A stretch of DNA of 64,000 nt from Vulcanimicrobiota bacterium (GCA_019637395.1 JAHBVR010000005.1:253312-317311); one strand, 5' to 3'. Positions 4,510-25,070 are shown, numbered from the stretch's first letter. The notes: generated from the sequence alone by a model not told the origin. Translations and numbers: made by a program.

Positions 4510-6957
4510 TTGGCTGAGTCAATTTTGGTGGTAGAAGACGATCCGCTCATGCTGGCGGCTCTCGAGATTTTGTTGGAAGATGAAGGCTATGCGGTCACTA
4601 CCGCGCAGTCGGGTATCGACGCCATCCGCATGGCGAAGGACAAAGAATTCGACCTGGTGATTTCGGATGTGCAAATGGCCGAAATGGACGGCATGGAAAC
4701 GATTTCCGGCGTCAAACAGCAGCAGCCCAGCGCGCGCTCGATTGTGATCACCGGTTACGCCAGTCCGGATGTGCCCATTCAGGCCATTAAAATGGGTGTG
4801 GATGATTACATTCTGAAGCCCTTCGACGATCGCCAGTTTGTGGCCAGCGTCAAACGTTGCCTGGAATCGTTCCGCCAGCAGAAAATGTATACCCAGGGCC
4901 TGCAGCAGCAATGGCGGGATTTCTCCACCATCATCAAGCTGCTGTCCGAGGGCGTCGAAGAGCGCGACGAGCATTTTGCCGGTCATTCGCGAAGGGTGGC
5001 CGAACTCAGCGTTAAGCTGGGCCGCAAACAGGGCCTCTCACGCAGCCGCTGTGAAGCCTTGGAATTGGCTGCCTTCCTGCACGACATCGGCAGCATCGGT
5101 CAGAAAAAAGCTTTCCTGGACAAAGCCGAGGAATTGCTCAAGGAAGATATCGCCCAGATCCAGGCGGCTTCTTCCCAGCAATCCGAGTCGCTCTTCTCCA
5201 GCGTCTCCAGCCTGCGCGAAATTTTCCGTATCATCGTCCACCACCACGAGTGGTATGACGGCAGCGGCAAACCGCACGGCCTCAAAGGTGACGATATCCC
5301 CCTGGAATCCCGTATCCTGTGCGTGACCGAAGCTTACGACGCCATGATCAGCAAGCGTCCCCACCGCGAGCCGCTGGGCCACGCCGAAGCGCGCCAGGTT
5401 TTGCAGAAGGAAGCAGGCACTCACTTCGATCCGACCCTGGTGGAAGTTTTGCTGAATCTGCTGGTTGACTCTTCGGAGGACGAAGAAAACGAAGAAGCTA
5501 TCGAGGCCAGCCTCTCCAAGGAACGCCAGGCCGAGCTATTGCTGGGTATCTGCCGCACTTATCTGACGGCCGGCGATCTAGAAACGGCCGGCAGCGGTTT
5601 TCAGCAAGTAATCGATCTGCTGGGGACCGATGGTTCGCGCACCGCTCTTTCGGAAGCTTCGGCCGGGTTGGCCCTCAGCTTGCTGCACCGCAAGCGCTTC
5701 GAGGATGCCGAGGCGGCCGCCGCCAAGGCCATCGAGTGGGCTCATGCCAGCAGCCAGTTGGTGCTGGGGCGGGCGCGCGCCCTGCACGGGTTATGCTGGG
5801 GTTTTCTGGGCAAACCGGACCAGGCTCTGGCCGAATTGAACACCGCCCAGGAAATTTTTGCCGTTTGGGAGGCGCATCTCGATCACGCCATCGGTTTGCT
5901 CTACCAGGGCCGCGTCGAGCGTGAGCGCAACGGCGCCTGGAAAGAGCCGGTGGAGAAAGCCGTCGAGCTGATCGATCAGATGGGCTTGCAGCAGGTACTC
6001 AAACAGGAGCGCTACGTGGCCATTCCCCTGCTGCTCCAACTGGTCGGTCAGGAAGAAGAGCACGTCAAAGCCAAGAACCTGCTGGCCTGGATCGGCTACG
6101 ACACGTTGCAGCCTTTCTTTATGGAGCTGGAAACCGGCGCCCGCGAGCGCGCCATTTCGCGTCTGGCTCCCCGTGAAGGCGGCGGCGCTCCTCAATCCCC
6201 GCCGCTTTCCATGTATGGCTTTGGTAAGTTCCGAGTCTTCCTGGGTGACCAAGAAGTGGGCGAGAAGCTGTGGAAGACGCGCAAGTCCAAGTATCTTTTT
6301 GCCTATCTGGCCTGCAACGCCGGGCGCGATGTCCCGGACGAGAAGGTCATGGATCTTTTCTGGCCCGACCACGAGCCGGAAAAGGCTCGCCAATCCCTGT
6401 ACGCCGCTCTCTCGCATATGCGGAAAGCCCTGGAAGCTGTCTTCCCGGGCGAAAGTGACCGGGTGGTGCTGGCCCGTAAGGGTTTCTATCGCTTCAACTC
6501 GGAGCGCAGCTACTTCTTCGATATGCAGGAGTTCGAGCGTCTCTACGATCAGGCTCAGGCGCGCATCAAGGAGGGCCGTGAAGACGAAGCCATGGTGGCT
6601 TTCCAAAAAGCCGAAGCCCTCTACACGGGCGAGTTTATGGAAGGCTACTATGAAGACTGGGCCGTCTTCATCCGCGAAGAGCTGGATATGAAATACAGCG
6701 AAATGCTGCAGACGCTGATGGACCACTTCTTTGACAAGAATCGCTTCCCGGTGTGCATCGACTACGCCCAGCGTCTGCTGCGCATCGACTCGTGTCACCA
6801 GGACGCCCACATTACCCTGATGCGCTCCCACGTCGCCCAGGGCAAGCCGGAACTGGCCGCCCGCCAGTACCAGGCCTGCAGCCAGGTGATGAAAAACGAG
6901 CTCAACATGTCGCCCTCCCCCGAGATGACGGCACTCTACCTGCAAATTACGGGATAG
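4510..6957 (+). CDS. Response regulator: REC - HD-GYP - TPR - SARP/BTAD DNA-binding fusion
   Basis: An 815-residue protein starting with TTG at 4510 behind GGAGGGG. Residues 3-118 are a REC domain (Asp53 acceptor, Thr81, Lys103). Residues about 148-320 are an HD-GYP-type phosphodiesterase: HD at 191-192 and HHH at 244-246, but the GYP signature reads GKP (253-255). Residues about 340-550 are helical TPR-like repeats. Residues about 565-815 are a winged helix plus bacterial transcriptional activator domain as in SARP/AfsR regulators (KSKYLFAYLAC, then EKARQSLYAALSHMRKAL). It therefore appears to join phosphorelay input, cyclic-di-GMP hydrolysis and transcription control in one chain. Divergent from the histidine kinase; recN starts 4 bases after its stop. 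Confidence 0.88.
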   Translation: MAESILVVEDDPLMLAALEILLEDEGYAVTTAQSGIDAIRMAKDKEFDLVISDVQMAEMDGMETISGVKQQQPSARSIVITGYASPDVPIQAIKMGVDDYILKPFDDRQFVASVKRCLESFRQQKMYTQGLQQQWRDFSTIIKLLSEGVEERDEHFAGHSRRVAELSVKLGRKQGLSRSRCEALELAAFLHDIGSIGQKKAFLDKAEELLKEDIAQIQAASSQQSESLFSSVSSLREIFRIIVHHHEWYDGSGKPHGLKGDDIPLESRILCVTEAYDAMISKRPHREPLGHAEARQVLQKEAGTHFDPTLVEVLLNLLVDSSEDEENEEAIEASLSKERQAELLLGICRTYLTAGDLETAGSGFQQVIDLLGTDGSRTALSEASAGLALSLLHRKRFEDAEAAAAKAIEWAHASSQLVLGRARALHGLCWGFLGKPDQALAELNTAQEIFAVWEAHLDHAIGLLYQGRVERERNGAWKEPVEKAVELIDQMGLQQVLKQERYVAIPLLLQLVGQEEEHVKAKNLLAWIGYDTLQPFFMELETGARERAISRLAPREGGGAPQSPPLSMYGFGKFRVFLGDQEVGEKLWKTRKSKYLFAYLACNAGRDVPDEKVMDLFWPDHEPEKARQSLYAALSHMRKALEAVFPGESDRVVLARKGFYRFNSERSYFFDMQEFERLYDQAQARIKEGREDEAMVAFQKAEALYTGEFMEGYYEDWAVFIREELDMKYSEMLQTLMDHFFDKNRFPVCIDYAQRLLRIDSCHQDAHITLMRSHVAQGKPELAARQYQACSQVMKNELNMSPSPEMTALYLQITG

Positions 6958-6961
6958 CAGC

Positions 6962-8584
6962 TTGCTGGTCGAACTGCAAATCGAGAATTTTGCCCTGATT
7001 GACTCGGTGCAGTTGGAATTCCGTGAAGGTCTGAATGTGCTCACCGGCGAGACCGGAGCGGGTAAGTCCATTGTGCTGGACGCGCTCGGCTTTCTGCTCG
7101 GCGACCCGGCCCGCGACGCGGTCAGCAAGCGCGCCCGCGTGACCGGTCGCTTTCTGCTTTCGGCCGAAGCCAGAAGGTGGCTGGTGGAGCAGGGCTGGGA
7201 TGAGGACGACGAGGCCATCGCCCTGCGCGAAGTCAGTCCCGGCGGGCGCAGCCTGTGCCGTCTCAACGGTGCTCTGTGCAGTCTGGCCCAGTTGCGCGAA
7301 CTGGGTAACTTGATGTTGGAAATCCACAGCCAGCATCAATCCAACCGCCTGTTGAGGCCTTCTCGCCATCTTGAGTTGCTGGACAGGCTCTCGGAGCATC
7401 AGCCGCTGCTGGAAGCTTATCGTGATTTATATCGCGAATCCCAAAACACGGAGAAACAGCTGCTGGAACTGGGGCAGAGCGAGCGCGAACGCAACCGTCA
7501 GTTGGAGTGGCTGCGCTTCGAAGTGCAGGAGATTGAAGAAGCGCGTCTGTTACCTGAAGAAGACGCGGAAATTGAGGCCAACATCCGCCGTCTGGCCGCC
7601 GCCGAAGAGCTGGGCCAGCGCTCCCGTCAGGCGCTTTTGCACGTCGACAATGCTTTGGACGGGGTGGGGCAGGCGCAAAAGCAATTGAGCGCTCTGGTCC
7701 GCCTGGACCCGGCTGCTTCCTTCGTGGAACAAGCAGCCTTGTGCGAAAGCCAGTTGGGCGAGCTTTCGCATGCTCTGAACCGCTACCAGGATGATTTGCA
7801 GGGCGAACCCGAGCAGCTCGATCTACTGCAGGCGCGGGCCGAGCTGCTGCGCACGCTGAAGCGCAAATACGGCCCGGATGTGGCGGCCATTCTGGCCTAC
7901 GGAGCCGAAGCTCGCCAAAAACTGATCGACCTGGAGAATGCTGAGGAGAAACTGGAACACTTGCAGCAACGCCAACGCGAACTCTCCCTTCAATTGAAGG
8001 ACCTGGCCGGCCGCCTGAGCAGCTCGCGCCAGAAACAGGCGCGCCTCCTGGAAAAAGAGGTGCAACTGCAGCTGGCCGACCTCAATCTCGAGAACATGCG
8101 CTTTGAAGTGCACCAGCAGGCCGGCGAACTGGGGCCGCAGGGCGCCGACCAGTTGGAATTTTACCTGGCTCCCAATCCGGGTACGCCGCCGCGGCCCCTG
8201 GCCAAGATCGCCTCGGGCGGCGAATTGTCCCGTATCATGCTGGCGGTGATCGGCATCTTCGCCAAGTTCGAGCCCCTGACTACGCTGATTTTCGACGAGA
8301 TCGACGCCGGCCTGGGAGGGCGCGCCGCCGAGGCCGTGGCCCGCAAGTTGGGCCTGCTGGCCAAGCAACGCCAGGTTCTCTGCGTCACCCATCTGGCCGT
8401 CATCGCCGCCGCCGGCGATCAGCACATCCGCGTCTCCAAAGAAAGCGACAGTGAACGCACTCAATTGGAACTGACCACCCTCACCGGCAAGACCCGCGAA
8501 GCCGAAATTGCCCGCATGCTCAGCGGTGATGCCGGCGCCGCCTCGGCCCAACGCCTGGCCCGCGAATTGCTGAGGAAGAGTTAG
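6962..8584 (+). CDS. recN: DNA repair protein RecN
   Basis: A 540-residue SMC-like ATPase, close to the usual length of about 550. The N-terminus has the RecN signature LVELQIENFALID and Walker A GETGAGKS (29-36). A long coiled coil follows in the middle (about 150-370). The C-terminal ABC half has the signature segment KIASGGELSRIMLA and Walker B LIFDEIDAGLGGRAA (about 440-455). RecN helps repair double-strand breaks by holding broken DNA ends. Its TTG start lies 4 bases after the regulator stop, with no clear SD of its own, so translation is probably coupled. Confidence 0.95.
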   Translation: MLVELQIENFALIDSVQLEFREGLNVLTGETGAGKSIVLDALGFLLGDPARDAVSKRARVTGRFLLSAEARRWLVEQGWDEDDEAIALREVSPGGRSLCRLNGALCSLAQLRELGNLMLEIHSQHQSNRLLRPSRHLELLDRLSEHQPLLEAYRDLYRESQNTEKQLLELGQSERERNRQLEWLRFEVQEIEEARLLPEEDAEIEANIRRLAAAEELGQRSRQALLHVDNALDGVGQAQKQLSALVRLDPAASFVEQAALCESQLGELSHALNRYQDDLQGEPEQLDLLQARAELLRTLKRKYGPDVAAILAYGAEARQKLIDLENAEEKLEHLQQRQRELSLQLKDLAGRLSSSRQKQARLLEKEVQLQLADLNLENMRFEVHQQAGELGPQGADQLEFYLAPNPGTPPRPLAKIASGGELSRIMLAVIGIFAKFEPLTTLIFDEIDAGLGGRAAEAVARKLGLLAKQRQVLCVTHLAVIAAAGDQHIRVSKESDSERTQLELTTLTGKTREAEIARMLSGDAGAASAQRLARELLRKS

Positions 8585-8652
8585 GTGCACGACAACGGAT
8601 CGCGGACCGTCGAGGGGGGATCTGCGGAGGGCTTGCAGAACCGCTGTTCTGG

Positions 8653-9945
8653 ATGCAGCAAAAGACACAACTGAGTAATGGCTTAACGGTGGTCAGCGAG
8701 CGTGTTCCCGAGCTGCGCTCCTGCAGTCTGGGCATCTGGTGCGGAGCCGGCTCCCGCTTTGAAACCGACCAGCACGCGGGTCTTTCCCACTTTCTGGAAC
8801 ACATGTTTTTCAAAGGCACCCGGTCGCGTACGGCCTACGACATCGCCGTCACCATGGACTCGGTGGGCGGCCAGCTCAATGCTTTCACCGATCGCGAGCA
8901 CACTTGCTACTACGCTCGCGTCATGGACCGCCATATGCCGATGGCTCTCGACATCCTTTCCGACATGGTCAACCATTCGCTCTTCGAAAATGAGGAAATC
9001 GAGCGCGAAAAGGGGGTCGTGCTCGAAGAAATCAAGATGTACGAAGACACTCCCGATGACCAGGTTTTCGAACTCTTCAATCGCGCTTTCTATCAAAAGC
9101 ACTCGCTGGGCCGTCCCATTATCGGCTATTCCGAAAGGGTTCATTCGCTGTCGCGCCAGGACCTGGTGGACTACGTGGAGCAGCGCTACCATCCGGGTAA
9201 CTTGATGATCGCCGCGGCCGGCCAGCTCGACCACGATCGATTGGTGGAGATGGTCGAGAAGCACTTCAAGCAGGCCCGCCCGAATCGAGGTATCCCTCCT
9301 GGTAGTCCGGTTCCCACACCGCAACAGCACCGTTCCGTCTATCACAAAGCCTGCGAACAGACTTATCTATGCCTGGGAGCGCCGGGCATCGCTTACGTGG
9401 ACCCTCGGCGTTACACGATGTTGGTGCTCGACAGCGTGCTGGGTGGTTGCATGTCATCCCGGCTTTTCCAGGAGATCCGCGAGAAACGCGGTCTGGTCTA
9501 CTCGGTGAGCACGATTCAAACCGCTCTTTCCGATTGCGGAACCTTCGGTGTATTCGCCGGTGCCAGCGCCGAAAAGGTGCCCGAAGTTCTTCAGGTGGCT
9601 CGCGATATTTTCGCCGACGTCAGCGCTAACGGCATCACCGATGAGGAGTTGGAGCGGGCCAAGGAGTTACTTAAAGGAGCGCTGGCGCTCAATTTGGAAT
9701 CGACCTCCAGCCGCATGATGCGCATTGCCCGCAACAATCTGTATTTCGGCCGCTTCGTGCCCGTCGAGGAAACGATCGAGAAGATCGATGCTGTCAGTCA
9801 TGCCGAGGTAAAAGAATTGGCCGCCTGGCTGCTTGAGCCGACCCGTTATTCTCTAGCCGCTCTCGGTCCGGTGACCGAGGTGGATGGCATCAAAGCTCAA
9901 CCTCTACCTGAATCCTACGCACTGACTGGAAAGAACGCGCTATGA
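8653..9945 (+). CDS. M16 family zinc metallopeptidase (processing-peptidase-like)
   Basis: A 430-residue single-chain M16B-type peptidase. The inverted zinc motif is HFLEH (His46, Glu49, His50), with the distal Glu ligand in VVLEEIKMYED (about 125-126). The C-terminal half contains the family segment SSRLFQEIREKRGLVYSV. No signal peptide, so it is probably cytoplasmic. Homologues of this size sit next to dapB and other diaminopimelate genes in Firmicutes and elsewhere. Here the gene overlaps dapB by ATGA, so the two are translationally coupled. Confidence 0.92.
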   Translation: MQQKTQLSNGLTVVSERVPELRSCSLGIWCGAGSRFETDQHAGLSHFLEHMFFKGTRSRTAYDIAVTMDSVGGQLNAFTDREHTCYYARVMDRHMPMALDILSDMVNHSLFENEEIEREKGVVLEEIKMYEDTPDDQVFELFNRAFYQKHSLGRPIIGYSERVHSLSRQDLVDYVEQRYHPGNLMIAAAGQLDHDRLVEMVEKHFKQARPNRGIPPGSPVPTPQQHRSVYHKACEQTYLCLGAPGIAYVDPRRYTMLVLDSVLGGCMSSRLFQEIREKRGLVYSVSTIQTALSDCGTFGVFAGASAEKVPEVLQVARDIFADVSANGITDEELERAKELLKGALALNLESTSSRMMRIARNNLYFGRFVPVEETIEKIDAVSHAEVKELAAWLLEPTRYSLAALGPVTEVDGIKAQPLPESYALTGKNAL

Positions 9946-17290: not shown

Positions 17291-17734
17291 CTAGGCGTTC
17301 GGGCTGAAGACCCAGACCGACTTGCCGTCCGCATCGAGAATGGCGCGCTCGGCCGTGCGCACCGGCGTTTCGTCGGCTTTATTCACGAAGCTCGAATACT
17401 TGTATGGATTGTAAGTCACCAATTGGGGCTGGCCCGAGGTCTGCCCGGCCTGGCCGTGAACATAGCGGCGGCTGGGATAGCCGCTCAGCCTGACCCCTTC
17501 CAGAGTGCCCACCACGCCGGCGTGAACATTCTTGCGCTGCTCCTCGAGCACGCGACGCCGGCCGGCCTGGCTCACTTTCAGCTCGACATCGCTCAGTTCT
17601 ACCCGGTCCGCGTGGGCCACCACGTGGCCCGTCTGGCGGTCCTTGATACTCCAGCAACCCTGGTGCAGGTTTTTATAGACGAAGACACGTCGACCGTGTA
17701 GCTGTTCTTGAGGTAGGGCGTTAGGCAACTTCAT
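17291..17734 (-). CDS. Conserved-looking unknown protein, 147 aa
   Basis: Small basic soluble protein with no signal peptide. The central part (VYKNLHQGCWSIKD, HVVAHAD, then GRRRVLEEQRKNVHA) has the look of a small conserved family seen scattered in many bacteria, often in accessory DNA, but I cannot name a function. The C-terminal third (YNPYKYSSFV, AILDADGKSVWVF) contains a likely beta hairpin. It is isolated: a structured inverted repeat touches its 3' end, and the upstream gene is divergent. Scattered distribution would fit horizontal transfer; this is an inference. Confidence 0.65.
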   Translation of the reverse strand: MKLPNALPQEQLHGRRVFVYKNLHQGCWSIKDRQTGHVVAHADRVELSDVELKVSQAGRRRVLEEQRKNVHAGVVGTLEGVRLSGYPSRRYVHGQAGQTSGQPQLVTYNPYKYSSFVNKADETPVRTAERAILDADGKSVWVFSPNA

Positions 17735-19945: not shown

Positions 19946-20688
19946 ATGGATCCCCTGCGCAACTTCCAGCCCACCGCCCTGACCCGCAATTCCGGGCCAT
20001 TGCCACGCCATTCCGAAGAGGAGCCCGAGGACGAACCAGGCGACCACTTCCGGGATGCCCCCGTCGAGGGCGAAGAGATGACGCTGGATGAGGAATGCGC
20101 GGAAGGCGAGCGCCAGGAAGAGGAATTGCGCCAGAAATACCCGGAATGGCCGGCCGGCGCGCCCCTGCTGGAGAGGTGCCGCCAGCGCCTGCTCCCGCAC
20201 TGTGTCCGGACGGAAGTCTTCTATCGCTTCGCCGCTCTCGACACCAGCCGCCCCCTGGCTTCTTCCTGTGCGAACGGTATGGTCTTTTTCAGTCGCGGCT
20301 TGCTGGAGCATCTCGGCTTCGATCAGGTTTGCTATTTTGGCGCTCACGAAATCGCCCATACCGAACTCCGCCACTACGCCACCCGTATGCGCCGGCGCAG
20401 CGATTTGCAGCGGTCGCTGCCGGCAGCGCCTTGCGCTTGCGCCTGGATCAGGCGGCGGTAGTGGCCGTGCGCCATCAAGAAGAGTTTGAAGCCGATCACC
20501 AGGCAGCGGTATGGCTGGATTTCGAGCTGGCTCAGTCATCTCTCACGGCGCTGGCCGAACTCTGCACCTGGTTGTCACCGGAGACTCTGACCATGCCCAG
20601 CCACCCCAGTTTTCCGCAACGCGTCGCGCGTGTGCTCTCGGGACCGCCGGAACTGCTGGCCTACTGCTACGAGTTGCTCAACGGCTGA
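19946..20688 (+). pseudogene. M48-like zinc metallopeptidase interrupted by a frameshift
   Basis: ATG at 19946 (AAAGGTG upstream) opens a frame with an acidic N-terminus and the zinc motif HEIAH in CYFGAHEIAHTELRHYATRMRRR. This frame stops at 20461. The rest of the domain continues in another frame from about 20420 to 20688 and holds the third-ligand segment EEFEADHQAAVWLDFE, as expected of M48 peptidases. Adding one base near 20400-20425 would give one protein of about 247 residues. No slippery heptamer is visible, so programmed frameshifting is unlikely; decay or an assembly error are the alternatives. The 3' end overlaps the convergent phosphatase gene by 22 bases. Confidence 0.72.
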
Positions 20689-21266
20689 GGAGCGTCGTTC
20701 AGGAAACGCACCTCGGCCGGAGAAAAATGACGTATGCTCTGGTGCTCTCGGGTAGGACGGCCAAGCGCCCAAAGCTGCAGAAAACGCAGCGGGTCGCCGT
20801 GCGATACTAGTAAAAAGCATTGGCCGGTCTCCCGGTTTTCCAGTTCTTCGATGAGCGAGCTCAGGCGTGCCGTAAGTTGCCTGGCAGACTCCACTCCCTG
20901 CTCGTCTTCGTCCAGTTGGTCGTTCTTCCAGACGGGCTCGTAGTTGTCCGCCGAACTGCCTTCCCACGGGCCAAAGAAGCGCTCGCGCAAGCGCGGTTCC
21001 AGCACCGGGGGGGCGCATCCCAGAGCGGCGGCGGCGATTTCGGCCGTCTCGCGGGCGCGCAGAAAGTCGGAGCACAGGACGCGCGTTTCCGGGCCCAGGC
21101 CGCTCTGACTGGCCAGCCGCTGAGCCTGCTCCCGGCCCAGCTCGCTCAGACCATAACCGGCGCAGCCGTGCTCGGGCGAGCTGATGATTTTGCCGGCCAG
21201 ATTGGCCAGACTCTCGCCGTGGCGCATCAGAAAATAGCGATTCTTGTGCACAGGGGGCCCGGTCAT
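20667..21266 (-). CDS. Histidine phosphatase family protein (phosphoglycerate-mutase-like)
   Basis: A 199-residue branch-1 histidine phosphatase. The phospho-acceptor is His16 in LMRHGES. The second catalytic His is His156 in VSHGD, and LRARETA and Glu95 in RERFFGPWEG supply the usual Arg and acid. The family includes cofactor-dependent phosphoglycerate mutases, CobC and broad phosphatases; at this length a small-molecule phosphatase is more likely than a glycolytic mutase. It ends 22 bases inside the convergent M48-like gene and starts 3 bases after the DUF2126 stop, so it is probably the last gene of the amidotransferase-amidoligase transcript. Confidence 0.88.
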   Translation of the reverse strand: MTGPPVHKNRYFLMRHGESLANLAGKIISSPEHGCAGYGLSELGREQAQRLASQSGLGPETRVLCSDFLRARETAEIAAAALGCAPPVLEPRLRERFFGPWEGSSADNYEPVWKNDQLDEDEQGVESARQLTARLSSLIEELENRETGQCFLLVSHGDPLRFLQLWALGRPTREHQSIRHFSPAEVRFLNDAPQPLSNS

Positions 21267-21269
21267 AAC

Positions 21270-23324
21270 CTAAGCCAGCACGGCCAGGCGCAGATCCAGC
21301 GTCAACGGGAATTCCGGATTGGGCAAAGGCTCGCTCCAACTGCTTTCACCAGACTCGCGCACGGCTTTTTCGAAGCGGCAGGCGCGTCTGGATTCGGCCT
21401 CCTCGGCGCTGGCGGGCAGGCTTTCCCAGGCCTGGCCATCGCGATTGAGAGTGTGATAGCGGCAACTGCCCAGAATGCGGTCGCCCTCAAGCAGGTCAAA
21501 GCGCAAGGGAGACTGCACGCCCAGAGTCGGATGCAAGCTGTGGGCGAATTGCCAGGCCCGGAAGCGTACCGCCGCCAACCATTCCCCCTGGCCCAGGTCG
21601 TGCAGGGGCAACAGGTGCCCGTTGCAGGCCACCCGGTGGCGCTCGGGGTTGAGCCCGGAGAGGCGCACTTCCACCCGTTGCAGCGAAGAATCGACCGGGC
21701 GAGAGGTGCCTCCCGCTCGGACTCCGTCCCCCAACACCGGCCAGGGTTCCAGCGCCTGGCGCAACTGCAGCAGCACACCGGCGCACCGGCAACTGCCCAG
21801 CAGCGGAAAGCGGAACTCGAAATGTGGGTGAAACCACGCCGGTTCTAATTCCAGACCGTGTTCGCGCAGGTCGGCCAGGACTTCCAGCAGGTCGTCCCAC
21901 AGAAAGGTCGGCAGCATATAGCGGTCGTGCAGTTGGGTGCCCAGGCGGCGCAAGCTCTGTTGCACCGGACTCTTCCAAAGCCGTCCCAAGAGAGCGCGCA
22001 GCAGCAGCATCAGAGTCAAGTTCATGTGCGGATCGGGCGGCATTTCCAGGGCCCGGAATTCGAGCAATCCCTGTTGACCTCCGGGAGCCACCGGGTCAAA
22101 CAACTTGTCCACGCAGATCTCGCTGCGGTGCCCGTTGCCCGAAACGTCCACCAGCAAATCGCGGAAAATGCGCCCGAGCATGGCCGGCTCCAGTTCACCC
22201 TCCAGCTCCCGGAAAGCCAGTTCCAATTCGTAGAGAGCCTCGTGGCGGGCTTCGTCCACGCGCGGGGCCTGGCAGGTGGGTCCCACGAAGAGACCGGAGA
22301 ACAAATAGGACAGGGCCGGGTGGTGATTCCAATAGACCAGGATGCTGCGCAAAAAGTCGGGTCGGTGGGCAAATGGACTCTGGCGGGGGCTGGGTCCGCC
22401 CACCACCACGTGGCAACCGCCGCCGCTCCCCTGCCAGCTGCCGTCGCGCCCAAAGCGGTGAGAAGCCAGCCCGCAGGCGCGCGCCTCCTCATCCACGCCC
22501 AGCACGATCGAGACCAGTTCATCCCAACTGGCAGCCGGATGCAGATTGACTTCGATCACGCCCGGATCGGGGGTGACGGAAAGCTGGTGGAACCCGGCCA
22601 CTCCCTCATCCTCCAGGTTGGGAATAGGCGGAGCGTAGCCGTGCAGGCTTATACGGGCCTGGCTCTGGCGCAGCACTTGCAGCAACTCCAGCCAGGCCGA
22701 CACCGATGCCAGTGGGGGCAGAAAGACTTCCAGGCCATCAGTTGCTTGGGAAACGCAAAGAGCGGTTTTGATCGGGCATTCGTCCGTCCAGGGCAAACGC
22801 ATGCCGGCCGGCCCCGGACACTCGACCAGGCGCAGGCGCTTGCCCGGCCAGGGGGCGGAATGCCACAACATGCCCCCCCTGCTATCCGGGCCGTGAGCCA
22901 GCAAAAGAACGGTGCTGTCGTGGTTGTCAACCTGGCGGCAGAAACTGGCCGGCACTTTCAACTGGCCGCACACGAAGGTCAGCAGTTGGCGGGGCGACCA
23001 CGATTTGCGGCCTTCCAACCGCAGGGGTTCCTGCTGGTGCCAGAGGCAGCGCAAAGCCCAGCGCGGCGCATCCTCGCCCGGATACCACTTGCCCTGGCTA
23101 TGTTGCAGTAGACCTTGCGGCGCGAAGCGGTCCAGCAGGCGTTGGGCCAGTAACTGGGCTCGAGCCAGCTTGGTTTCGCCTAGCGCGGCCAGCGACCACT
23201 CCGGCTGATCGGCCTGAGTTGGGTCCAGGTAGGTCGGTTCGGCACCCATGGTCATGGTCAGTCCGTGGCGCGCCCAGTAGGCGTCGACCCGGCGACCGCA
23301 TTGCTCGATTTGAGACCAATTCAT
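21270..23324 (-). CDS. DUF2126 putative amidoligase
   Basis: A 684-residue protein. It shows the landmarks of DUF2126 (Pfam PF09899, described as a putative glutamine-synthetase-like COOH-NH2 amidoligase): GEDAPRWAL near the N-terminus, GSWQGSGGGCHVVVGG, NGHRSEICVDKLFDP and GLLEFRALEMPPDPHMNL. In most bacteria this domain is the C-terminal part of a chain of about 1,100 residues that begins with a transglutaminase domain. Here the transglutaminase is in the separate upstream gene, and the stop/start overlap (ATGA at 23321-23324) couples them. The likely reaction is ATP-dependent amide-bond formation on an unknown acid or peptide. The phosphatase gene follows 3 bases later. Confidence 0.85.
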   Translation of the reverse strand: MNWSQIEQCGRRVDAYWARHGLTMTMGAEPTYLDPTQADQPEWSLAALGETKLARAQLLAQRLLDRFAPQGLLQHSQGKWYPGEDAPRWALRCLWHQQEPLRLEGRKSWSPRQLLTFVCGQLKVPASFCRQVDNHDSTVLLLAHGPDSRGGMLWHSAPWPGKRLRLVECPGPAGMRLPWTDECPIKTALCVSQATDGLEVFLPPLASVSAWLELLQVLRQSQARISLHGYAPPIPNLEDEGVAGFHQLSVTPDPGVIEVNLHPAASWDELVSIVLGVDEEARACGLASHRFGRDGSWQGSGGGCHVVVGGPSPRQSPFAHRPDFLRSILVYWNHHPALSYLFSGLFVGPTCQAPRVDEARHEALYELELAFRELEGELEPAMLGRIFRDLLVDVSGNGHRSEICVDKLFDPVAPGGQQGLLEFRALEMPPDPHMNLTLMLLLRALLGRLWKSPVQQSLRRLGTQLHDRYMLPTFLWDDLLEVLADLREHGLELEPAWFHPHFEFRFPLLGSCRCAGVLLQLRQALEPWPVLGDGVRAGGTSRPVDSSLQRVEVRLSGLNPERHRVACNGHLLPLHDLGQGEWLAAVRFRAWQFAHSLHPTLGVQSPLRFDLLEGDRILGSCRYHTLNRDGQAWESLPASAEEAESRRACRFEKAVRESGESSWSEPLPNPEFPLTLDLRLAVLA

Positions 23325-25009
23325 TCCCCCACGACCTCCGTCTTGACTCGCACCGTCAACTTTTCGCCCGTGCCCCCACGGTAGAGTGTGCCGGAAGTAG
23401 GTGTAGCGTCGGTATAGCTACGCCCGCAGGCGACACGCACGTGATCCAGGTCGGCTATGGTGCCGTTGGTGGGGTCGAAGCCCACCCAGCCCATCCAGGG
23501 CAGATAGCATTCCACCCAGGCATGCGAGGCTTCTGACTGGACCTGGTTGGAGTAGTCGGCTCCGGTGCGAATATAGCCGACGCGATAGCGGGCCGGGATG
23601 GCCAGCAAGCGCGCCAGGCAGATTAACAGGTTGGCAAAGTCTTGACATACACCCTTACGGTTGCAAAGCAGTTCGAACGGCGTGGTGGCCAGGGTGGTGG
23701 ACTGCGGGGCATACTCAAAATCGCGCTTGATTTGCTGGTTGAGGTCGAGCAACGTGTCCACCAGTTGAAAGTCGCAGCGTTCCACCGCCGCCATGGCAAA
23801 GTCCGACAGAGCCAGCAGTTGATTCTCCGGCAACTCGATCGGTAGCAGGTAGGGGCTCATCATCTGGCGTTGCCAGGGCATCCACACCAGCGGAATGGAG
23901 GTGCGCTGGTTGGGTGATTCCAGGGGCATACTGTGAATGCGTACCAGCGACTGGCTGACCACTTTCATTTCTCGAAAGGGAATCTCCACTTCCAACGAGG
24001 TGGTGAAATTACCGAAGACGTCTTCATACTGGCGCCGGCTGCCGTCCACCGACAGGTGCAGGCTGTGCTCCAGCACTTCCTGATAGCGATCGCATACGGG
24101 GGTCAGGCGAAACAGGTGGGAGCTGCGTTCCACCGGAGTTTCGTAGGTGTAGGTCGTCTCGTGCAAGACCCGCACGGTGCGGGTGCGGGCCGGTTGCGCG
24201 GTCTGGCTGGGACGCAACTGCACGGGTTGATGCTGTTGGTCCGGCAGCGAATTCCAAATCAGGGCCCCGCGGCGGGCTACCAGCATCTGTCCCGGCTCCA
24301 TTTTGAGCCAATCTTCCTCCGACGGCGGTAGGGTAGAAAAGAGCACGGCGGTGCGCTGGTGCTCGACCGCGTCGTCCAGATCCAGCCGGATCAATCCGGC
24401 CCTCAGGTGAGCCGGGCGCTCGGTGGGCAGGCGCCGCGTCCACAGGACCTGATGGTGGCTGTTTTTATCGTGATAAAAAACCAGGTCCAGGCCGTCGGTG
24501 AAGACCAGGTTGGCCGTGCCCAGTTCGTTGATTTGTTGAAAAAGCTGGTGCAGCCTGGGCCAGCCCAGGTCGCTCAGACGGCTGGCTCCGGCCTCGCGCA
24601 AGCGGTCGCCCAGCCAACACAAGATGTGCTCGGAGTCGGTGCTTCCCACCGGTTCATAGGTGTGCAGAGCCAGCTTGACCTGGAAGTTGCGCAGCTTGCC
24701 GTTGTGCGACAGCAGCCAGTCGCGGCCGGCGTGGCGCAATTGAAACGGATGGGTATCCTGCTGGCTGCGCCGGTCGGCCGCGCCCAGCGCAAACGAGAGA
24801 AAAATCGTCGAGCGAAAATGGGACCAGTCCTGCAACATGCGCACCAGACCGCTGTCCCCTCGGCAGATCGGATCCTTGACCACGGAAGCCGCCCGTTCGC
24901 CCTCCGGATACCAGCCAAAGCCCCAACCGCAGGGCACTTTCTCCGGGCCCTCGACGGTCGGAAGCTCGCCGAAATGCACTTGCGGAGAAGCCCCCGAGTC
25001 GAAGCACAT
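23321..25009 (-). CDS. Class II glutamine amidotransferase - transglutaminase-like fusion
   Basis: A 562-residue protein. ATG at 25009 makes Cys2 the N-terminal nucleophile (MCFDSGASPQ), as class II glutamine amidotransferases require; HNGKLRNF and GSTDSEH are their glutamine-site segments (YafJ-like, residues 1-270). Residues about 290-375 are a bacterial transglutaminase N-terminal beta domain. Residues about 420-560 are a transglutaminase-like core with triad Cys455 (GVCQDFANLL), His496 (ASHAWVECYLP) and Asp512 (GFDPTNG). The first domain would release ammonia from glutamine and the second would act as a peptidase or acyl-transferase. Coupled by ATGA to the DUF2126 gene. The fusion order is unusual. 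Confidence 0.88.
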   Translation of the reverse strand: MCFDSGASPQVHFGELPTVEGPEKVPCGWGFGWYPEGERAASVVKDPICRGDSGLVRMLQDWSHFRSTIFLSFALGAADRRSQQDTHPFQLRHAGRDWLLSHNGKLRNFQVKLALHTYEPVGSTDSEHILCWLGDRLREAGASRLSDLGWPRLHQLFQQINELGTANLVFTDGLDLVFYHDKNSHHQVLWTRRLPTERPAHLRAGLIRLDLDDAVEHQRTAVLFSTLPPSEEDWLKMEPGQMLVARRGALIWNSLPDQQHQPVQLRPSQTAQPARTRTVRVLHETTYTYETPVERSSHLFRLTPVCDRYQEVLEHSLHLSVDGSRRQYEDVFGNFTTSLEVEIPFREMKVVSQSLVRIHSMPLESPNQRTSIPLVWMPWQRQMMSPYLLPIELPENQLLALSDFAMAAVERCDFQLVDTLLDLNQQIKRDFEYAPQSTTLATTPFELLCNRKGVCQDFANLLICLARLLAIPARYRVGYIRTGADYSNQVQSEASHAWVECYLPWMGWVGFDPTNGTIADLDHVRVACGRSYTDATPTSGTLYRGGTGEKLTVRVKTEVVGE

Positions 25010-25070
25010 GGCCATCAAGTGGGTACTCACCCACACTACCTAACCCCTCAGGAGGGAATGTAAACACTGA

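Follow-up and report, generated by a model that had tools for sequence, protein, structure and literature searches.

A stretch of 64,000 nucleotides from the genome of a Vulcanimicrobiota bacterium (GCA_019637395.1, JAHBVR010000005.1:253312-317311), hereafter the window, carries a gene in which a glutamine amidotransferase (GAT)-like domain is joined to a transglutaminase (TG), followed by a gene for a stand-alone DUF2126 amidoligase, and this arrangement raises the question of which reaction the two proteins could share. The initial annotation, made from the sequence alone, held that a class II amidotransferase with Cys2 as its nucleophile releases ammonia, and that the set forms and exchanges amide bonds. 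The comparative analysis reported here partly confirmed that observation and partly supported its interpretation: the GAT-like domain appears to be a pseudoenzyme, and the gene pair is read, with a probability of about one half, as a rearranged two-protein variant of a predicted peptide-tagging system (ATP-grasp, glutamine synthetase (GS)-like ligase, alpha-E and TG) in which the GAT-like domain would bind without hydrolysis. A system of this kind, composed of a circularly permuted (CP) ATP-grasp, alpha-E, TG, Anbu and DUF2126, was reportedly predicted by Iyer et al. in 2009. The function of operons encoding ATP-grasp, alpha-E, TG and Anbu is unproven and possibly peptide tagging (PMC5666114, PMC6376114). 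Among the papers searched, none names DUF2126 or a GAT-TG fusion.

The GAT-like and TG domains of the fusion

The fusion protein, GAT-TG (23321-25030; 569 amino acids; all window coordinates given here are on the minus strand), is encoded in a single open frame that matches the Pfam families GATase_4 (E 1.1e-52, profile positions 2-263 of 272), Bact_transglu_N (E 5.3e-19) and Transglut_core (E 1.1e-18), which bears out the annotated fusion. The class-II-GATase-fold domain, delimited by the GATase_4 match, alignment to the solved YafJ-type amidotransferase 1te5 and a residue table, spans residues 3-267 (24230-25024), and is followed by a bacterial TG-like N-terminal region (residues 287-363; 23942-24172) and the TG core (residues 427-520; 23471-23752).

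The identity of the nucleophile depends on the start codon. An in-frame ATG or GTG lies 21 bases upstream of the ATG at 25009 in each of the five genomes of the genus, and the codons that follow it (S-T-H-L-M-A-M) show synonymous changes only. Translation from the upstream GTG moves the beginning of the GATase_4 match to profile position 2, against position 8 for translation from the ATG. Judged from this conservation, the true start is GTG 25030 (MSTHLMAMC...) and ATG 25009 is internal, so that the Cys highlighted by the initial annotation becomes residue 9 (25004-25006), off the nucleophile position. A fusion-family profile compared with 1te5 paired the segment MCELLGMS of 1te5 with MSDLLALS, and Cys9 of the fusion aligns with Ser8 of 1te5; in a control, Cys2 of 1te5 fell on GATase_4 profile position 2. 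The five-genome start comparison and the alignments to 1te5 and Pfam together rule out a Cys2 nucleophile. Thus, the N-terminal domain does have an amidotransferase fold, as judged by its GATase_4 sequence match, but its nucleophile position is occupied by Thr3 (25022-25024) and not by the annotated Cys.

Thr occupies the nucleophile position throughout the genus, and Ser does so in the remaining seven fusion proteins (Thr or Ser in 12/12, never Cys). The glutamine-carboxylate-binding Arg, which we take to be equivalent to Arg73 of GFAT, is replaced by Leu82 (24785-24787) in the genus; other lineages have Lys, Arg or Tyr there. The genus retains the oxyanion Asn110-Gly111 (24698-24703) and the amino-binding Asp132 (24635-24637); Gly111 and Asp132 are invariant across the 12 fusions, and Asn110 is replaced by Lys in L153/L154 and by Ser in L148. 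None of the 12 proteins has the full GAT catalytic set. Because the nucleophilic Cys and, in the genus, the substrate-binding Arg are gone, ammonia release is unlikely, the domain is better described as a class-II-GATase-fold pseudoenzyme, and GAT-TG proteins are probably misannotated when they are called glutamine amidotransferases. The domain resembles YafJ-type class II amidotransferases in its fold, its HNG loop and the Asp of its TDSE motif, but differs in lacking the Cys nucleophile and, in the genus, the substrate Arg, and in being fused to a TG. It also shows a weak similarity to EgtC, the gamma-glutamyl hydrolase of ergothioneine synthesis; its TIGR03442 score of 24 bits is far below the cut-off of 218.65, and no egt genes were recognised at the fusion locus, so that membership in this family was rejected.

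Pairwise dN/dS (nonsynonymous to synonymous substitution rate) values within the genus are 0.02-0.08 for the GAT domain, 0.04-0.08 for the TG, 0.07-0.15 for DUF2126 and 0.11 for the histidine phosphatase encoded downstream. The whole of the fusion and DUF2126 pair is therefore under strong purifying selection, and within the operon the GAT domain is the most tightly constrained; since this constraint persists despite the lost catalytic residues, the domain presumably does something. These values, together with the fold, the retained HNG motif and TDSE Asp, and the Met-Cys terminus that the internal ATG would yield, might favour a working glutaminase whose ammonia feeds the ligase or TG reaction, as first proposed. 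The internal start, however, would cost the fold most of its first strand, Cys9 does not align with the catalytic Cys, and the nucleophile and carboxylate-binding residues are changed as described above; we regard an active glutaminase as highly improbable.

The TG half shows no such degeneration. Its triad of Cys462 (23645-23647), His503 (23522-23524) and Asp519 (23474-23476) is shared without exception by the 12 fusions and by ordinary TGs, and the best PDB match of its structural model is the transglutaminase-like protein 3isr. A tree of 65 TG domains groups the fusions in a single clade (support 100/97) beside a TG-only protein of genome G1109 (L160:9122-10150), separate from the TG of TG-DUF2126 proteins.

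Distribution and neighbours of the fusion

Among 149 genomes of its own phylum, the fusion is restricted to the source genus. Outside the phylum, where samples of 298-385 genomes per group were searched, it was identified in three alphaproteobacterial genomes (one metagenome-assembled genome (MAG), L052/G058, and two 1.4-Mb genomes, G547 and G646), two genomes from the order of an Acidimicrobiales MAG (G092 and G163) and two gammaproteobacteria (G926 and G1170), giving a total of 12 proteins, five in the genus and seven elsewhere. The fusion is thus rare but scattered, and this distribution suggests horizontal transfer. A search of plasmids returned 308 matching records, none covering over 80% of the fusion, and a search of viral contigs for the fusion returned nothing.

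In four of the seven genomes outside the genus, the fusion stands beside CP-ATP-grasp and alpha-E genes: G1170 and G926 have ATP-grasp, alpha-E and GAT-TG in that order; G092 has a fused ATP-grasp-alpha-E followed by GAT-TG; and in G058 GAT-TG is followed by ATP-grasp and alpha-E, the three genes being divergent from TG-DUF2126. The G058 fusion (L052), 45% identical and belonging to an independent lineage, adjoins a DUF2126 gene, so that linkage between the fusion and DUF2126 does occur in a relative. A CP-ATP-grasp is carried by all fusion genomes, and DUF2126 by all except G163 and G1170; in G547 and G646, ATP-grasp and alpha-E are encoded elsewhere in the genome with no TG beside them. This neighbourhood survey supports the relation to ATP-grasp/DUF2126/TG systems that had been drawn initially. 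In the two 1.4-Mb genomes, GAT-TG overlaps a kdsA-like gene (KDO-8-phosphate synthase; L153:4724-7398 and L154:2850-5518), hinting at an envelope link.

The invariable Ser or Thr at the nucleophile position, the invariance of Gly111 and Asp132 and the strong constraint on the domain would also fit an altered N-terminal nucleophile (Ntn) hydrolase, in which N-terminal trimming unmasks Thr3 or its Ser counterpart and the domain, working as a peptidase or amidase, stands in for Anbu, the proteasome-like Ntn hydrolase of the usual system. Anbu, identified in L067 by sequence comparison with solved structures, lies near DUF2126 in 5 of 80 loci (L055, L058, L067, L068 and L069) and in G1109, whose TG sister of the fusion clade lacks a GAT domain, and it was seen beside no fusion locus in the neighbourhoods searched, no genome-wide search having been made. 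At the background frequency of about 6%, however, chance alone would leave six fusion lineages without Anbu, so its absence there is not significant, only compatible with replacement. In addition, one, two or five residues precede the nucleophile depending on the lineage, no conserved processing site is present, and the oxyanion Asn and the Arg are not conserved. An altered Ntn hydrolase is consequently considered rather improbable. A related and still less probable proposal is that a GATase-fold domain, with Ser/Thr or a pure binding pocket instead of Cys, replaced Anbu in the tagging system and was fused to the TG, giving a mobile, self-contained tag-processing enzyme that would now occur in at least three phyla. 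Two further observations concern Anbu: in L067, a Methylococcales MAG, two Anbu genes (4689-5444 and 8216-8980) flank one ATP-grasp/alpha-E pair, and in G1109 an Anbu gene fragment (L161:3-551) lies near the TG-DUF2126 gene.

The separated DUF2126 protein and its locus

The stop codon of the fusion overlaps the start codon of the DUF2126 gene in an ATGA sequence (23321-23324), as read directly from the window. The two genes adjoin in each of the five genomes of the genus that were searched; G001, G002 and G003 share the 4-base overlap and G004 has a 4-base gap, in agreement with the translational coupling noted initially. The DUF2126 protein (21270-23324; 684 amino acids; PF09899, E 2.6e-224) lacks the N-terminal TG domain usual in this family, whose typical members are about 800 amino acids long and fused to a TG, and about 125 residues are also missing between residues 117 and 182. 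It retains 139 of the 175 columns that are near-invariant in 80 long forms, and it falls on a very long branch (length 1.68) outside 50 long forms in a tree. Its structural model has a predicted local distance difference test (pLDDT) score of 86, and nearly all leading Foldseek matches have the GS fold, namely glutamine synthetases, YbdK (probability 0.98), GmaS and Dop, although no E-value falls below 0.001; a PDB sequence search with DUF2126 returned nothing useful.

The long branch, the lost residues and the lack of a neighbouring DUF2126 gene beside GAT-TG in most other lineages could indicate that the operon is one of convenience, combining a cysteine-protease-like GAT-TG with a decaying or repurposed ligase and no shared reaction. 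The overlap or 4-base gap has nevertheless been kept in five genomes while the flanking genes were rearranged, DUF2126 is under purifying selection, and the two genes lie side by side in the independent lineage G058, all of which make this explanation unlikely.

The same genome encodes further components of the predicted system. ATP-grasp-alpha-E is encoded with two TGs at C1 and a second ATP-grasp, alpha-E pair at C7, so that the reported absence of alpha-E and CP-ATP-grasp applies to the locus but not to the genome, where both are encoded twice, nor to the other lineages in which they stand beside the fusion. After the alpha-E gene on C7, a tetratricopeptide repeat (TPR)/ankyrin-repeat protein is encoded (L177:8600-10477), at a place where G004 and G005 have a TG. 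In a sister genus and a neighbouring family, TG-DUF2126, ATP-grasp-alpha-E and TG form one operon. Because the TG preceding ATP-grasp-alpha-E at C1 groups as sister to the TG of TG-DUF2126 (100/96), an ancestral TG-DUF2126 probably split: its TG would have stayed on C1, and its ligase half would now follow GAT-TG or have been replaced by another copy. The possibility that GAT-TG had replaced the ATP-grasp-linked TG in the genus was considered and ruled out, that TG surviving at C11.

A gene for a histidine phosphatase (branch 1; 20667-21266; PF00300, E 4.7e-35) starts 3 bases past DUF2126 in the window, as had been stated, but the linkage is not tight: the gene adjoins DUF2126 in G002, inserted genes intervene in G001 and G003, and it was not seen beside the fusion in the neighbourhoods examined in other lineages, so that its membership is doubtful. 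Three congeners carry a DACNV-DAC (diadenylate-cyclase-like) gene in divergent orientation to the fusion (L035:9866-11134, L036:8056-9324 and L037:10371-11636); it is missing from the window. Elsewhere in the window, a match to Phage_L5_gp82, the mycobacteriophage L5 gene 82 family, was identified at 17291-17734 (E 2.8e-37), in surroundings that are otherwise bacterial.

Relation to the predicted tagging system

The pair shares with the predicted tagging system its DUF2126 and TG components, orthologous fusions adjoin ATP-grasp and alpha-E, and both of the latter are present in the genome. It differs in that its TG is joined to a degenerate GATase-fold domain, its DUF2126 is short and encoded apart from the TG, ATP-grasp and alpha-E are unlinked, and no Anbu is present at the locus. 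The closest single-protein counterpart is the TG-DUF2126 fusion (about 1,100 amino acids; G005, G006 and other contig loci), in which DUF2126 carries an N-terminal TG and which here corresponds to two coupled genes; the TG of the pair, however, falls in another TG clade, and its DUF2126 is about 125 residues shorter.

In the mechanism that we infer, as regards the reaction of each enzyme and the substrate, DUF2126 would form an amide or isopeptide bond with ATP, and the TG domain would cleave or exchange this bond through a thioester. The GAT-like domain, no longer hydrolysing glutamine, may bind a glutamyl-like or amide-bearing group and present it to the TG, the translational overlap may keep the ligase and the amide-exchanger in step, and ATP-grasp and alpha-E would be supplied from elsewhere in the genome.

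Several observations weigh against the rearranged two-protein variant. Because the pair does not stand beside ATP-grasp and alpha-E in the genus, both being missing from the fusion locus itself, cooperation in trans can only be inferred, and the fusion also lies away from the other system genes in G163 and the 1.4-Mb alphaproteobacteria. The TG linked to ATP-grasp/alpha-E in relatives is kept at C11 as an ordinary TG, so that GAT-TG is not the sole candidate partner. The remaining 36 of the 175 near-invariant DUF2126 columns are changed or lost in the short form, including Asn304, which is Cys, and its activity may therefore be altered or lost; the Foldseek E-values of this protein all exceed 0.001. 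The GAT-like domain itself was poorly modelled (pLDDT about 30-75, with two GAT sequences in the alignment).

The ATP-grasp/alpha-E/TG/DUF2126 system spans many bacterial phyla, and the fusion names one protein that is expected to bind its substrate. A GAT-like domain that is apparently catalytically dead yet tightly conserved would offer a ready bait for the tag or the tagged molecule.

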